NCBI GenBank assembly: GCA_002685655.1
Contig: NYXM01000204.1
Coordinates: 1 to 12,030, forward strand
Origin: Planctomycetaceae bacterium
Lineage (GTDB): Bacteria > Planctomycetota > Planctomycetia > Pirellulales > Pirellulaceae
Direction of reading: 5' to 3'
DNA length: 12,030 bases
This document shows, in pieces, positions 2,218-12,030 of the stretch. The notes beneath the pieces are model-generated. The model had not been told where the DNA came from. It saw only the letters and a program-made list of their open reading frames with translations, and did not search any database. The position numbers and the translations under genes are program-made. The number at the start of each line of letters is the position of its first letter. The stretch's first letter is position 1.

Positions 2218-2580
2218 TTACGAATTGACGTTTGCAATCGCTTCTTCCCGCGACTTGAGAATTGGCCAAATCGTATCGAACTTGGCCGTCTTTAGAATCT
2301 CCTGTCCGACTTTTGAGACACTGCAAACGGCGAATGTTCCACCCGACTTATTCACTTTCTTCCAAACGACCACCATCAGTTCCAGCATGATCGAGCCGAA
2401 ATAGTCGAGCGCCTCCAGGTCGATAATGGCGTGCTTGGAGTTATTCTTCTCCAACTGTTCAATCAGCGCGTCACATTCGTCACGCACTTCGTCTTCGACC
2501 AGCCCGTGAATGTTGGCGACTGCGGCAATAATCAGAGCATCATCGCTCGATTCAACGCGAAAGAACTTGGGTGAACTCAT
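2218..2580 (-). CDS. STAS-domain protein (anti-sigma-factor antagonist-like), non-canonical phosphosite
   Basis: Encodes 120 residues spanning one STAS domain, the fold of SpoIIAA/RsbV anti-anti-sigma factors that bind RsbW-like kinases. The core is IIDLEALDYFGSIMLELM (about residues 52-69), where classical members read D-S-S-G; here it is D59-Y60-F61-G62-S63. The serine normally phosphorylated is therefore replaced, most probably by Phe61. The start at 2580 is chosen because AGGAG lies 9 nt upstream. An in-frame upstream ATG at 2613 would extend into the previous gene and has no comparable site. The gene begins four bases after the stop of the REC-HATPase gene, so the two are almost certainly one transcript and probably translationally coupled. 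It could bind its partner constitutively or be switched by another residue such as Ser63. Confidence 0.85.
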   Translation of the reverse strand: MSSPKFFRVESSDDALIIAAVANIHGLVEDEVRDECDALIEQLEKNNSKHAIIDLEALDYFGSIMLELMVVVWKKVNKSGGTFAVCSVSKVGQEILKTAKFDTIWPILKSREEAIANVNS

Positions 2581-2584
2581 CGGA

Positions 2585-3508
2585 TTACGCTCCTGGCGAC
2601 ATCGTGGTGTCATGTCGTTTCACCAGCGTCACCTCGTTGCCGTCTTGATTGAATAACACGTCATCCATAAACGTCCGCATCAGCAGTAGTCCACGACCGC
2701 TGGGTTTTTCCAGATTAGCGGGGTCGGTCGGGTCCGGCAAAACCGATGGATCGAATCCTGGGCCCTCGTCACGAATCTGAAAACGACCCTCTTCTGGCGT
2801 CACTTTAGCGTCAACAAAGATTCTACGCTGACGATACGGATTCATGCCCAAACGCTGATCAACTAACGTTCGATATATCGCCCGATCTCCCTCGCGTGCC
2901 TTCGAGTCTAGTTCAAGGTTGCCGTGATAGAAAGCGTTGTTCAACGCCTCTTCCAGCGCCACGCAGGTACGAATTCCATTCGTCTCGTCACACAGTTTTG
3001 CTTTGCGTATGAAACTGCGCATATAGTTTATCAGTGCGGGGATCATGGTCACGTCGTTTTCGATGACGAATTGACAACCCGTCATACAGTCCATCAATCG
3101 ACATTGAATCTGTTCTTCCTGTGCCACGGACAGCACGTTTTCAACGGTGTCCACCAGCATACTTGCCAAGGCACTTTTGGGCACATAGCTGGACGCGCCA
3201 GTCTGTAATGCCCGTACGGCGATCTCCTCATTTCCCTTGCCAGTCATCAGTATTACGGGGACAAGTGGGTATCGCTTGTTAACCTCGGCAGTCAGTTCAA
3301 GGCCGTCCAGGTTGGGCATAATCATGTCTGTCAGGACGATGGTGGGGCAGGCGTGCCCCATCAACTCAAGGGCCTCTTCGCCGTCTCCGGCATAGACGAT
3401 CTCGATATTGGGCGCTTTTGCCAGCAAACCACCCACGAGTCGGCGGTCGATCGGCGAGTCATCCACAACGAGAACCGTTGCCATCATACGGTAATCCATA
3501 GGCGGCAC
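2585..3508 (-). CDS. Response regulator fused to an RsbW-like HATPase domain
   Basis: A 307-residue two-domain signalling protein. Residues about 10-125 are a REC domain with the acidic pair D16-D17, phosphoacceptor D61 in LTDMIMP, T89 (MTGKG) and K111 (YVPKS). Residues about 140-305 form a HATPase_c domain of the anti-sigma/serine-kinase type: N-box EEALNNAFYHGN (187-197), G1 box DEGPGFDP (247-254) and G2 box SGRGLLLM (270-277). There is no histidine-kinase dimerisation domain, so ATP-dependent serine kinase or binding-switch activity towards a STAS partner is expected, gated by aspartate phosphorylation. The GTG at 3508 is chosen because GGGGAGG lies about 10 nt upstream; ATG at 3499 is an alternative. 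It is the first gene of the operon with the STAS protein. No cognate histidine kinase is nearby. Confidence 0.9.
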   Translation of the reverse strand: MPPMDYRMMATVLVVDDSPIDRRLVGGLLAKAPNIEIVYAGDGEEALELMGHACPTIVLTDMIMPNLDGLELTAEVNKRYPLVPVILMTGKGNEEIAVRALQTGASSYVPKSALASMLVDTVENVLSVAQEEQIQCRLMDCMTGCQFVIENDVTMIPALINYMRSFIRKAKLCDETNGIRTCVALEEALNNAFYHGNLELDSKAREGDRAIYRTLVDQRLGMNPYRQRRIFVDAKVTPEEGRFQIRDEGPGFDPSVLPDPTDPANLEKPSGRGLLLMRTFMDDVLFNQDGNEVTLVKRHDTTMSPGA

Positions 3509-4663: not shown

Positions 4664-6232
4664 ATGCAATACCGACGGCTCCGTGCTCCGCACCACCATG
4701 GCCAGTGTGTGATCGATCCACCACTGTCGACCGCGGCCACGCTTGTCGCCGAGAACCAAGCGAATACTCAAATCGACACGGACTTGCCGGGGCAGTCGTT
4801 GCATGAGATTGCCAGAACGGCGCGTCACGATTTGTTGAGCGCCGCTCGTCGCTATACCGCCGCTTATCGTGATGTGCCGGCGGTGACGATGGATGAAGAC
4901 GCGCCCCTGGTGATGGCCGGTCATCAGCCTTCGCTGTTTCATCCGGGCGTCTGGTTCAAGAACTTTGTGCTGGACCATCTTGCAAAGAAGCTCAACGCCA
5001 TCGCTGTCAATCTTCTGATCGATAATGATGTTTCGCGGCAGGCGGCGATTCGTGTCCCCACCGGCAACGTCCTTGCGCCGCGCGCCGTGACTGTTCCTTA
5101 CGACAAACCACAGCCGGGAATGCCGCTCGAGGAAAGTCGTTTGCTCGACCCAGTTTTGTTCGCCGGCTTCGGAGATCGGATCTGTGAGACAGTTCGGCCG
5201 TTTTCGCGCAATCCGCTCATTGCACAGTTATGGCCCCTGGCCGAACAAGCCGCTCAACGCACGAATCGCGTCCACCATTGCCTCGCGGAAGCTAGACACT
5301 GCATTGAACACCAATGGGGCCTCGATACCTTGGAATTGCCGCTGGGCGAAGTGTGCCAACAGACAGCATTTCGCTGGTTCATGTCGCACATCTTGGCTCA
5401 CGCGCAACGATTCCAGGTTGAACACAACGACACCCTGAACGAGTACCGACGGGCAAATCGTGTTCGGAGCAAGACGCATCCAGTGCCCGAACTTGCGCAG
5501 CAAGACAATTGGCTTGAGGCCCCATTCTGGATCTGGACAAGTGACAACCCAATACGTCGACCGCTCTTCGCGCGACCCATGGGCGATCAAACCGATCTTT
5601 CAGACCTGCGTGGTCTGACGCTGCAGGACGTTCCGCTGAATCCCGCCGGCAGCGACGAGGCGGCGGTCACGTATTTCGCCGAACGAGAGAGGCAAGGCAT
5701 CAAGATCCGCCCACGGGCCTTGATGACGACCATGTTCGCCAGACTCTTCCTATCTGACCTATTTCTCCACGGCATCGGGGGTGCGAAATACGATCAACTG
5801 ACCGACGATCTGATCCAACGTTTCTTCGGTCATCCTGCCCCCAACTTTCTCGTGGTAACTGCTACTGCGCACCTGCCGATTCAGCGCGATCCTGTTCACC
5901 CCAATGACCTACGTGAACTTCGTCAGCTGGCGCGGGATTTTCGCTTCCATCCCGAACGTTATTTGGAGGAAACACGCAGCACGAAACCGCTGATTGAAGA
6001 AAAACAAAAGTGGATTCACGACGACATTGCGAGTCCGCGGCAACGCCATGAAGCCATCAGCCGGTTGAACAACACACTGTCCGGTTTGTTACGCAAAAAA
6101 CAGGCGCAAACCGCCGAACGTTCGGCGCATGTGGCGGCAGCTCTGGCACGGGAACGCATCCTTGGCTCGCGCGAGTATTCATTTTGCTTGTTTTCGCAAG
6201 CAACTTTGCAACCATTACTACTAGACTTTTGA
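4664..6232 (+). CDS. Conserved planctomycete-type protein of unknown function, possibly BshC-like
   Basis: A 522-residue soluble protein that I do not firmly recognise. Visible features are VMAGHQPSLFHPGVWFKNF (about 83-101) followed by a hydrophobic strand and LLIDNDVS (117-124), a central RPRALMTTMFARLFLSDLFLHGIGG-type segment (about 350-375), and a helical, charged, coiled-coil-like C-terminus with many Arg, Lys, Glu and Gln. The order and spacing resemble bacillithiol cysteine ligase BshC: a GQQ-G-L motif then an acidic strand end, a central block ending in GG, a C-terminal coiled coil, and a similar total length. This is a by-eye comparison at low identity. The ATG at 4664 has AGGAG only one base upstream, which is too close, so the start may be an in-frame GTG at 4709. 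The frame is intact throughout. Confidence 0.7.
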   Translation: MQYRRLRAPHHHGQCVIDPPLSTAATLVAENQANTQIDTDLPGQSLHEIARTARHDLLSAARRYTAAYRDVPAVTMDEDAPLVMAGHQPSLFHPGVWFKNFVLDHLAKKLNAIAVNLLIDNDVSRQAAIRVPTGNVLAPRAVTVPYDKPQPGMPLEESRLLDPVLFAGFGDRICETVRPFSRNPLIAQLWPLAEQAAQRTNRVHHCLAEARHCIEHQWGLDTLELPLGEVCQQTAFRWFMSHILAHAQRFQVEHNDTLNEYRRANRVRSKTHPVPELAQQDNWLEAPFWIWTSDNPIRRPLFARPMGDQTDLSDLRGLTLQDVPLNPAGSDEAAVTYFAERERQGIKIRPRALMTTMFARLFLSDLFLHGIGGAKYDQLTDDLIQRFFGHPAPNFLVVTATAHLPIQRDPVHPNDLRELRQLARDFRFHPERYLEETRSTKPLIEEKQKWIHDDIASPRQRHEAISRLNNTLSGLLRKKQAQTAERSAHVAAALARERILGSREYSFCLFSQATLQPLLLDF

Positions 6233-9488: not shown

Positions 9489-10307
9489 TCAAGGGCTCGA
9501 CGCGCTACACCTGAATTCCAACAGCATGCCTGGCAAAAAGTTCTCGGGCAGTTCATTGATGTCACGGTCATCCAACACCTGAACCTGCAAGTCATACTTT
9601 GGACCCAGCTCAATCGCTTTTCTGATGGCCGTCACGTTGCCGTAGGCGAGCAGCGCTCTGCCGTTTGGGTTCAAACGGTCTGCGAGCTGACTCAGTAATG
9701 ACTCAAGCAGAAGAAGACCATGATCGTACAACGCATATTCGTCGATGGATTGTGGATGTTGGTCCTCCCAGGGAGGATTGGAAATGATCAGGTCGAAGCG
9801 TTCGCCAAGTTGGAGCACGGCGAAAGCCGAGCTATCCTCCAGCGGCACGCGACGGGTTTCCAAACGGTCAAGCAGTTCCAACATCTCAGCGTTATAGCGT
9901 GCATTCTCCAGCGCGTTTGGATTGACGTCCGTCGCCACGACTCGCTTCGCTTGCGCTTGGAGGCAGCAGAGAGCCACCAGCCCGGAGCCGGTGCCGATCT
10001 CCATGACCGTTCGCTTCCGCACTAGATCGGTTGTGTGAATCAGTTTTCGAAGGCTGCTGGTGTCTCGAGGCTCCCAGAATACGGTTTCGAACACGACGAT
10101 GTCGAAAGGCAACTCGGCCACGCGAAAGCGACCACGGATCGGTGGCTTGTCTGGCGTCGCGACCTCACCGGGGAACGACGGTTCAGACGCGGCCGGCTGA
10201 GTGGCCTGCGGCGGGATCGCTTGAGGTTTACAACTCGTTGCCGCGATGCAACCAAGGCCACCGATCAGCAACGAAACAAACAAACCTGTGCGACAAAGTG
10301 GTTTCAC
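9489..10307 (-). CDS. Class I SAM methyltransferase (NPPW) with an apparent lipoprotein signal peptide
   Basis: A 272-residue protein. Residues 58-272 form a Rossmann-like SAM methyltransferase: VMEIGTGSGLV (101-111, motif I), VVATDVNPNAL (123-133, motif II) and the catalytic tetrapeptide NPPW (177-180) used by N5-glutamine and N6-adenine methyltransferases such as PrmC or RlmF-like enzymes. The first ~26 residues look like an export signal: MKPLCRTG, then hydrophobic LFVSLLIGGLG, with Cys20 and Cys26 as possible lipidation sites. A Pro/Ala/Gln-rich linker follows (27-57). The GTG start at 10307 is well supported by AGGTGAT, a perfect 7-base Shine-Dalgarno match, five bases upstream, so the signal segment appears genuinely translated. 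A SAM enzyme outside the cytoplasm would be unusual; a membrane-anchored cytoplasmic form is the alternative. Confidence 0.85.
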   Translation of the reverse strand: MKPLCRTGLFVSLLIGGLGCIAATSCKPQAIPPQATQPAASEPSFPGEVATPDKPPIRGRFRVAELPFDIVVFETVFWEPRDTSSLRKLIHTTDLVRKRTVMEIGTGSGLVALCCLQAQAKRVVATDVNPNALENARYNAEMLELLDRLETRRVPLEDSSAFAVLQLGERFDLIISNPPWEDQHPQSIDEYALYDHGLLLLESLLSQLADRLNPNGRALLAYGNVTAIRKAIELGPKYDLQVQVLDDRDINELPENFLPGMLLEFRCSASSP

Positions 10308-10626
10308 GGTACATCACCTGCCGGGGACAAACATATGACGCCATTCGTTGGCCTGCGTTCCGGGCTGGATTTGGACGCTGCCACTGAGGCAAGGTTTACC
10401 GTTTCGAGTCGACATTTGCGTCTCCATAAAGAAAAACAGCTTCTTTGGAGGAGTCATTTGGTCACCGAGCTCCCATTTTTTCAAACCGTTTGCAACCTTG
10501 ACAGCTCACTTTTTGGCTAGTTCTTCGGTCTTAAAAAACGTAGCGCCTGTTTTCTTGCGGCAAGCAACCAAACGGCATGGACTTAGGGACTTGAGTCTTT
10601 TTTCCGCGCTGGTTCCGATCCGCGTT

Positions 10627-10642
10627 TGGCACGACAGCTGCA
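10627..10642 (+). promoter_or_regulatory. Sigma54-type promoter of the small-protein gene
   Basis: TGGCACG (10627-10633) and CTGCA (10638-10642) give the required GG-N10-GC spacing, with a perfect -24 block and one mismatch to TTGCA in the -12 block. A start near 10653 yields a leader of about 60 nt to the ATG at 10713. Sigma54 promoters need an enhancer-binding ATPase; no convincing enhancer palindrome was identified, though CTTGC-GG-CAAG at 10554-10564 is a small candidate. The rest of the spacer from 10308 to 10620 has T- and A-rich tracts but no gene I can support. Confidence 0.65.
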
Positions 10643-10712
10643 TTCCGTTCACGGCAGATGGACGAGTTCTTACCACCTACTGGACGCAAGGAAGTCAACC
10701 CGGGAGGAAATC

Positions 10713-10898
10713 ATGAGCGTTAGAGAAAAGAAGCAAACTTTGGAAGAACGAATGCTAGGCACGATCATCGACGCCATGCTGGACGCCAAGCAAGACTTGA
10801 GCGACAGAACGGTTCTCGATTGGTCACGCATTCTCATGGACTCATGTCGTCGCCGTAGGTTTGGAACTGATCAGTCTCCGTTTGTCACATCCTGCTAA
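10713..10898 (+). CDS. Small unknown protein (61 residues) under a sigma54-type promoter
   Basis: A 61-residue protein I do not recognise, beginning MSVREKKQTLEERMLGTIID. It is highly charged and probably helical over residues 1-50. It contains an amphipathic stretch LGTIIDAMLDAKQDL, a basic CRRRRF patch near 50 and a C-terminal cysteine. There is no signal peptide or membrane segment. The start is strongly supported by GGGAGG seven bases upstream. The gene is isolated: sigma54-type promoter, 60-nt leader, coding region, then a strong terminator about 50 bases after the stop. An upstream in-frame ATG at 10626 precedes the promoter's -12 box and is not used. The short length limits certainty, but four independent gene signals coincide. 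Confidence 0.75.
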   Translation: MSVREKKQTLEERMLGTIIDAMLDAKQDLSDRTVLDWSRILMDSCRRRRFGTDQSPFVTSC

Positions 10899-10949
10899 GC
10901 GATGCTTAGATTCAATTCGGGTACGTTTCTGGGGAAGCGGCGTACTCCC

Positions 10950-10987
10950 AAGGGCGAACGTGTCACCGAAGCACGTTCGCCCTTTTT
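10950..10987 (+). terminator. Rho-independent terminator of the small-protein gene
   Basis: AAGGGCGAACGTG (10950-10962) pairs perfectly with CACGTTCGCCCTT (10972-10984) around a nine-base loop, and the 3' arm runs into TTTTT (10983-10987). There is no T-run on the minus side, so it works mainly for plus-strand transcription. It ends the small-protein unit before the converging DUF1553 remnant. Confidence 0.9.
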
Positions 10988-11012
10988 GTGTTCGAAGAAA
11001 GCACATCCATCT

Positions 11013-11960
11013 CTAGCGTACGTGCATGAATTCGTTTGCACTCAACAGGGTCTGCGCGTACTGCTCCCAGGCGGACAGTTTCGGTTCATTTGCGTTTGTC
11101 GCAGTGTGATTGGGCTGCTTAGCCTGCGTCAGAAACCGTAGGCCAATCGCCTGTTCGCGGTCCGTCGGCGGTCTCGCGAACAACAGTCGATAGGCGCGGT
11201 CAATGCGCTGTGCGTCATTCTTGGCCTCGGCCGCCAACCGCCGAGCCAACTCGCGTGCCCGTTCAATCATGAACGGGCTGTTCATCATGAACAGAAACTG
11301 CTGCGGCACGATGCTGGTGACGCGTTTCGCGCTCGTCGCTCGCGGCGACGGAAAATCAAAGAGCCGCAAGAACTCGTCCGATTCGAACCGGTCGCCGTTG
11401 CGGCTGACGACAGAATAGAGCGTTCGTCGCCGACTGCTGAGCAGACGTTCGGTTGGCAAACCACCGATCGTTTGATCCAAACCGCCGACCACGTCCAACA
11501 ACGAATCACGCCACGCTTCGACGTCCATTCGTCGAGGGTTCATCCGCCAAATCGACCGGTTGTCTCCATCGTGTTTGAAATTCTCGGCATTGTACTGGCT
11601 ACTCATCTGATAGGTTGCCGAAAGCATGATCGTGCGGTGCAGGCGTTTGATTGACCATCCCGACTCGACAAACTCCACGGCCAACCAGTCCAGCAACTCC
11701 GCGTGCGTAGGCGGTTGCCCGAGCGTTCCAAAATTGCTGGGCGAACGAACCAGTGCGCGTCCAAAGTGCTGCAGCCAAATACGATTCACGATCACCCGCG
11801 CGGTCAGCGGGTTGTCTGGGCCGACGACGGCAGCGGCCAGCTCGATCCGCCCGCTGCCTTGAGTGAACTGTGGCCGATCGCCGTCTGCCAGGATCTTTAG
11901 GAACCGCCGCGGAGCAATCTCGCCCTGTTTGCGAAGGTTTGTGAACGGCGTTTGAAAACG
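11013..11960 (-). pseudogene. 5'-truncated DUF1553 (planctomycete PSD1) gene remnant
   Basis: From about 11942 down to the stop at 11013 the minus frame is open and matches the C-terminal DUF1553 domain. It runs NLRKQGEIAPRRFLKILADG, then GSGRIELA, DNPLTARVIVNRIW, HFGRALVRSPSNFG and PPTHAELLDWLA, then PRRMDVEAWRDSLL, and late VPQQFLFMMNSPFM and YRLLFARPPTDRE. Intact family members are usually 700-1100 residues with upstream cytochrome-like and DUF1549 domains; here only about 310 residues remain. Upstream the frame hits TAG at 11963-11961 inside a repeat, and no ATG, GTG or TTG precedes the homologous segment (the first is an internal GTG at 11795). It is most likely a dead 3' fragment; the coding frame itself has no breaks, so truncation may be recent. 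Confidence 0.8.
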
Positions 11961-11994
11961 CTAGCGCTTGGGCGGTTGAAAAGGCTAGCGCCCG
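11947..11994. repeat. Tandem 24-bp GCTAGCGC-containing repeat at the truncation point
   Basis: Bases 11947-11970 and 11971-11994 are two 24-base units matching at 20 of 24 positions. Each has the layout GGCG-TTGAAAA-GCTAGCGC. The first contains GCGTTT-GA-AAACGC (a 6-bp hairpin) and the palindrome CGCTAGCG; the second has GGGCG/CGCCC arms. They coincide with the point where DUF1553 homology ends. The last 36 bases of the window (11995-12030) show nothing recognisable. Confidence 0.7.
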
Positions 11995-12030
11995 ATGTGG
12001 TTTTGTTATTGTAATTGCGCCAAGCGGCCC

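Follow-up and report, generated by a model that had tools for sequence, protein, structure and literature searches.

The gene unit described here spans positions 10626-10984 of the window (the whole analysed stretch of DNA, 12,030 nucleotides in length), and all of its features lie on the + strand. It begins with a sigma54 (-24/-12) promoter of the GG-N10-GC type, TTGGCACGACAGCTGCA (10626..10642), which agrees with the consensus in 11/13 positions. A leader of approximately 60 nt follows, presuming that the RNA starts about 12 nt after the GC, at 10653. The Shine-Dalgarno sequence GGAGG (10703-10707) is located 5 nt 5' of the ATG at 10713 and precedes the coding sequence of a small protein (10713..10898, stop included), a frame of 61 codons with the stop codon TAA at 10896-10898. 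The unit is closed by an intrinsic terminator of 14 pairs and then TTTTTGTG (10950..10984). An earlier note on this DNA had described a sigma54-type promoter with exact GG-N10-GC spacing, a strong Shine-Dalgarno sequence and a 61-codon frame, all of which are read directly from the sequence (GG at 10628-10629, GC at 10640-10641); its perfect 13-bp terminator also exists, with 14 pairs instead of 13 by the tool's count.

Three features are additional to that first reading: a near-palindromic motif CAAACCGTTTGCAA upstream of the promoter (10482..10495), which is a candidate site for an activator of the enhancer-binding protein type, a 41-nt block TTACCACCTACTGGACGCAAGGAAGTCAACCCGGGAGGAAA in the leader that includes the Shine-Dalgarno sequence (10670..10710), and a second predicted 3' hairpin GUACG..UCUGGGGAAG..CGUAC between stop codon and terminator (10919..10947). 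At gathering thresholds no Rfam family matched the window.

Elsewhere in the window, the - strand of 2218-3508 encodes a protein with response-regulator and HATPase_c_2 domains beside a STAS-domain protein, likely a partner-switching regulator pair. A 522-residue open reading frame on the + strand (4664-6232) has no Pfam match at E 0.1. The peptide stretch LRRQRNGVAHFVADLLPTRMNPVKSRSKLR is encoded twice on the + strand, at about 2-91 and at 706-795, which points to a duplicated DNA fragment.

A search with the single protein sequence yielded 15 relatives of 61-62 residues with 70-97% identity, and a profile search added one distant relative. Once members detected in genomes were added to the profile, it retrieved 78 clusters at E 2.6e-11 or better, and the homologous clusters number 79 in all; the few that carry an organism label are hypothetical proteins of Pirellulaceae, Planctomycetaceae or Planctomycetes. 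Among the genes of the window and of its close relatives L001 and L002, dN is 0.07-0.16, dS 0.9-2.0 and dN/dS 0.07-0.10. The 61-residue frame is a real protein under purifying selection, and the conservation of the frame, for which the earlier note had suggested dN/dS as a check, is borne out by a ratio that is not random. The scan of 15 members against Pfam and NCBIfam assigned the window protein to no family; each hit came from a single member only, the best with E 0.022 (NCBIfam) and 0.055 (Pfam), none above a curated cut-off. A profile of 15 members found no PDB sequence at E up to 10, and the structure search gave no usable PDB match for either model. No paper on the protein family was found among the matches listed in a literature search that covered titles and the beginnings of abstracts, with most subscription journals outside its range.

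All 71 aligned rows share L15, L23, L29, W37 and C45. Of 70 distinct sequences, 62 terminate in Cys; this final Cys is lacking in L003, P0067 (L012) and P0059 and stands in the penultimate position in P0060, P0070 and P0076. The 112-residue members L010 and L022, which end in ASLDLG and were cut at the C-end in alignment A7, are both counted among the eight sequences without a final Cys. Since the final Cys is missing or displaced in several members, a chemistry of two Cys residues is not universal in the family. Alignment A7 comprises the new clusters except 13 of 63 (P0018, P0027, P0031, P0036, P0041, P0044, P0049, P0057, P0058, P0063 and P0077-P0079), five of which are 112-residue proteins. 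AlphaFold2, supplied with 71 sequences, predicted helices at residues 3-24, 26-30 and 34-49, with block-mean pLDDT values of 84-93 over residues 11-50 and of 53-55 beyond. The prediction is thus a helical hairpin whose second helix bears the invariant Trp and Cys. The positions of the two Cys residues suggest, with modest confidence, a thiol-based adaptor.

The site TTGGCACGACAGCTGCA is the only GG-N10-GC site with at least 10/13 matches on either strand of the window. Because a site of at least 11/13 is present in 13% of 200 dinucleotide-shuffled windows, the promoter of the single window is modest evidence, and the case for it is carried by conservation over 13 loci, namely the window, L001-L003 (genome contigs) and nine further genome loci. 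A GG-N10-GC site of at least 9/13 is present in all 13 of these readable loci, starting 60-111 nt 5' of the ATG, with start codons of distant members picked from the alignment; the score is at least 10/13 in 12 of them and 9 in L012. In shuffled upstream sequences the chance of a site of at least 9/13 in the same stretch is about 2% per locus. The loci include groups of close relatives (window/L001/L002; L010/L022; L015/L024/L025) and are not all independent, and the promoter-bearing members extend down to 25% protein identity. Given this divergence and the different neighbours of the gene, shared ancestry of unselected DNA is a poor explanation. The conservation of the -24/-12 elements among relatives, which the earlier note had proposed to examine, is thus observed, and sigma54-type regulation of the small-protein gene is well supported computationally. 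A sigma54 gene, recognized by its DNA-binding domain, was found in 11 of the 12 carrier genomes, and none was found in carrier genome G003. In related genomes the activator ATPase family PF00158 has roughly 15-20 strong matches (above 100 bits: 20 in G001, 15 in G002 and 16 in G817; all matches: 25, 19 and 21); the weak matches mean little, since this family also gives signals in all 14 control genomes.

The motif CAAACCGTTTGCAA is located 144-146 bp upstream of the promoter in the window, L001 and L002, is identical in 14/14 positions in L001 and L002, and its L002 version is a perfect palindrome, TTGCAAAC-N-GTTTGCAA. The motif was derived from these three loci and tested at every offset on the ten held-out loci. 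Offset 143-144 ranked first of 364 with a score of 86 (mean 52.3, sd 6.6), which was reached by 0/2000 mononucleotide shuffles; a lesser peak occurs at offset 64-66 (score 77). At 144-145 bp the motif is strong in L009 (12/14), L015 (11/14) and L025 (12/14), which are the only held-out loci that singly exceed shuffles. It is moderate (9/14) in L010, L022 and L024, the last being no better than shuffles when taken alone, weak (8/14) in L012 and L023, and absent at the expected place in L003 and L011 (4/14 matches each). Overall the motif is strong in 6 of 13 loci and absent at the expected place in 2. This position-fixed motif may mark the site of an enhancer-binding protein and strengthens the earlier proposal of control through such an activator. 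Between motif and promoter, a further block TTAGGGACTTGAG..TTTTTT (10583-10603), conserved in the window clade and best kept in L002, might be a DNA-bending site.

No activator signature motif was found in 7-16 kb around the 13 members. Looking for the activator by a palindrome close to its own gene led nowhere: among 30 activator loci inspected of 65 matches listed, the best palindrome match had 3 mismatches. Allowing at most one mismatch, the palindrome was located in 3 of 12 carrier genomes, at two member loci and three other places; in the remaining nine it is lacking at this stringency, including at the member gene itself. A wider regulon was considered and rejected: the extra palindromes of G001 and G002 adjoin an unrelated long frame without a sigma54 site of at least 10, and the third falls inside a long frame of G824. 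The combination of motif core and sigma54 site at this spacing was counted 37 times in the 12 carrier genomes versus 16 times in the reversed control, so that many of the 37 must be due to chance. Among the 30 of these that were inspected, an activator site of at least 11/14 accompanies a promoter of at least 10/13 in only four loci, all of which belong to the small-protein family; two more family loci have activator sites of 9.

Carriers of the gene are at least 7 of 98 relatives of G001, at least 12 of 149 genomes of the family (one spurious genome dropped), at least 3 of 396 in the order (after removal of one, with 15 candidates scored per genome) and at least 1 of 392 in the phylum (two dropped; 16 candidates scored per genome). 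These counts are lower bounds, since part of the first-look candidates were scored and genomes may be incomplete. Two further searches of 60 relatives each gave 6/60 and 5/60, all already known carriers. The loci L007, L008, L016 and L026 were rejected as spurious, with 23-30 residues matched at E 2.5e-4 to 3.5e-3 and no member-like frame. The neighbours differ between lineages, and so the gene behaves as an autonomous unit. Two carriers encode an SprT-like protein upstream, in the same orientation (L031:5615-6382 and L034:7437-8204, the latter just below the Pfam cut-off), and a convergent glutamine synthetase gene lies downstream in L031 (6962-8407, by Pfam) and, by eye, in L035. In loci of the L010/L022 type (L028 around 5077, L032 around 873) the end of the 112-residue protein gene overlaps the start of the downstream gene, by eye a creatininase-type enzyme; this overlap suggests translational coupling.

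The leader block 10670-10710 is identical in the window, L001 and L002 (3/3); the synonymous sites of the adjacent coding sequence differ by 54-69%. The block contains no ATG or GTG and its frame is shifted by one base between the window and L001/L002, and it is therefore not coding together with the small gene. Visual inspection of the other 10 leaders did not reveal it. Leaders of mRNAs controlled by CsrA carry GGA motifs, one of them at the ribosome site and one in a hairpin loop. The leader of the small gene resembles them in its GGA motifs, one of which is likewise at the ribosome site, and in that the carriers hold CsrA-family genes; it differs in that the GGA excess over the family is not significant and in that no stable hairpin was found in the leader. 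Outside the last 20 nt, GGA occurs 14 times over 13 leaders versus 9.4 expected, a count reached by 122/2000 shuffles, and CsrA control was rejected as a family-wide rule. CAAGGAAGU and GGGAGGA in the leader block resemble CsrA sites. CsrA-family matches number 4-18 per carrier genome (G001-G003, G401, G403, G410, G431, G738, G805, G817, G818 and G824), several of which lie within stop-to-stop frames of 270-430 residues; CsrA paralogues have apparently expanded in these genomes.

At the 3' end, none of 200 shuffles folded as well as the window's stretch from stop codon to terminator (z -3.5), and hairpin and terminator together reach z -3.5 to -5.4 across the window, L001 and L002; the window hairpin alone is no better than shuffles (z -0.73, 43/200). 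Six core pairs of the hairpin are kept in this clade, three of them with a one-sided change and none with a two-sided change. The terminator is present in the same three loci, with one two-sided A-U to G-C change in L001, where more than 100 nt of unrelated sequence separate stop codon and hairpin. Covariation of the 3' elements was rejected, as a single two-sided change in 3 sequences was reached by 149/500 shuffles. A strict scan over 260 nt detected no comparable terminator in nine of the ten other loci (in L009 within the roughly 120 nt available), and L022 has a weak 7-pair candidate. After the gene in L009, a 7-bp tandem array (CCAGACT; about 1-113) extends up to the contig end.

We regard it as rather probable that the unit is a stand-alone, signal-gated small-protein gene of Pirellulaceae type, in which an enhancer-binding protein and sigma54 control a helical-hairpin, thiol-based adaptor. 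A sigma54 enhancer-binding protein would bind the near-palindrome about 144 bp upstream of the promoter, and under an inducing condition the bound activator would loop to RNA polymerase-sigma54 at the -24/-12 elements and open the promoter on a signal. The resulting short mRNA would end at the terminator, and its strong ribosome site would direct the synthesis of a soluble 61-residue helical hairpin. Given its C-terminal Cys and the invariant Trp and Cys of helix 2, this protein would most likely act as a thiol-based adaptor, sensitive to redox state or metal, with another protein as its binding partner.

For the function of the protein, the main rival is a stress-made nucleic-acid or ribosome-binding factor that would contact RNA, DNA or ribosomes with the basic end of helix 2. 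It could account for the four consecutive Arg residues after C45 in proteins of the window clade, for Arg at position 46 in 67/71 rows and for Lys or Arg at position 49 in 70/71; however, the full run is not kept in the family (34/71 rows have Arg at position 47, and at position 48 there are 38 with Gln and 23 with Arg), the charges of the window protein almost balance with 11 K+R and 10 D+E, and known factors in Pfam, NCBIfam and the PDB sequences gave no match, so that this function appears unlikely. A further alternative places the RNA first, as a main or equal product in which leader and 3' hairpin form a regulatory RNA, e.g. a CsrA-binding leader, and the protein is secondary. The identical leader with its presumed CsrA-like motifs, the CsrA-family matches in all 12 carrier genomes and the 3' hairpin kept in the window clade would fit such a product, whereas the leader and 3' elements are not seen outside this clade, where the protein is conserved. 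Together with the weak GGA excess, the covariation result and the folding of the three clade leaders, which is no better than that of shuffles (z +0.6 to +1.1), this makes a leading role of the RNA quite improbable.

Two readings question the unit as such. The patchy occurrence in the family might reflect a mobile toxin, antitoxin or phage-derived small protein, but searches of 72,556 plasmid and 50,697 phage records gave no match to the window protein, the member loci examined have no neighbour that they all share, each genome has a single accepted match, and by eye the protein has no membrane segment; a mobile origin is accordingly considered very unlikely. It is more unlikely still that a conserved small open reading frame with a housekeeping promoter happens to lie behind a chance GG-N10-GC site. 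The frequency of equally good sites in shuffled windows and a -35-like hexamer TTGACA (10498-10503), which follows the upstream motif and is conserved in the window, L001 and L002, speak for coincidence. Against it stand the sigma54 sites in all 13 loci at their low chance per locus and the scan of 9500-12030, in which no sigma70-type site was found on the strand of the small gene and the sole sigma70-like site is on the other strand (10105-10076; shuffles average 0.9).

Sigma54- and enhancer-binding-protein-regulated genes of Pirellula sp. strain 1 / Rhodopirellula baltica are reportedly the subject of a study by Studholme and Dixon from 2004. Like the small gene, they represent planctomycete genes with sigma54 promoters: the available parts of the respective papers cite csrA as a sigma54 target in Pirellula (PMC12316311) and propose a sigma54 promoter for the thioredoxin gene of R. 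baltica, whose rpoN is not regulated in heat shock and is lowered in high salt (PMC2754498). They differ in that no small protein of the present family is mentioned in these parts (PMC12316311, PMC2754498), and in the available main text of the former the terms 'small protein' and 'hypothetical' have 0 occurrences each (PMC12316311). These targets are plausible surroundings for the small gene and not evidence for it. For the putative adaptor, CP12 offers a comparison of working mode only. CP12 is a small charged protein, of 80 residues according to PMC9406205, that regulates partners through its Cys residues and, unlike the family described here, belongs to photosynthetic organisms.

It is possible, although rather doubtful, that the unit is a dedicated sigma54 switch with the small gene as the only strong target, releasing on a signal a redox- or metal-gated thiol adaptor in the form of a helical hairpin. 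If true, it would add an as yet undescribed signalling module to those of planctomycetes. Since a sigma54 promoter requires an activator that answers to a signal, a small protein kept behind such a promoter down to 25% identity is a handle on a planctomycete signal, and the fixed upstream motif could serve as bait in a search for the activator. The protein family itself has no name as yet and is conserved, and the short length of its members lends itself to rapid structural and biochemical study.
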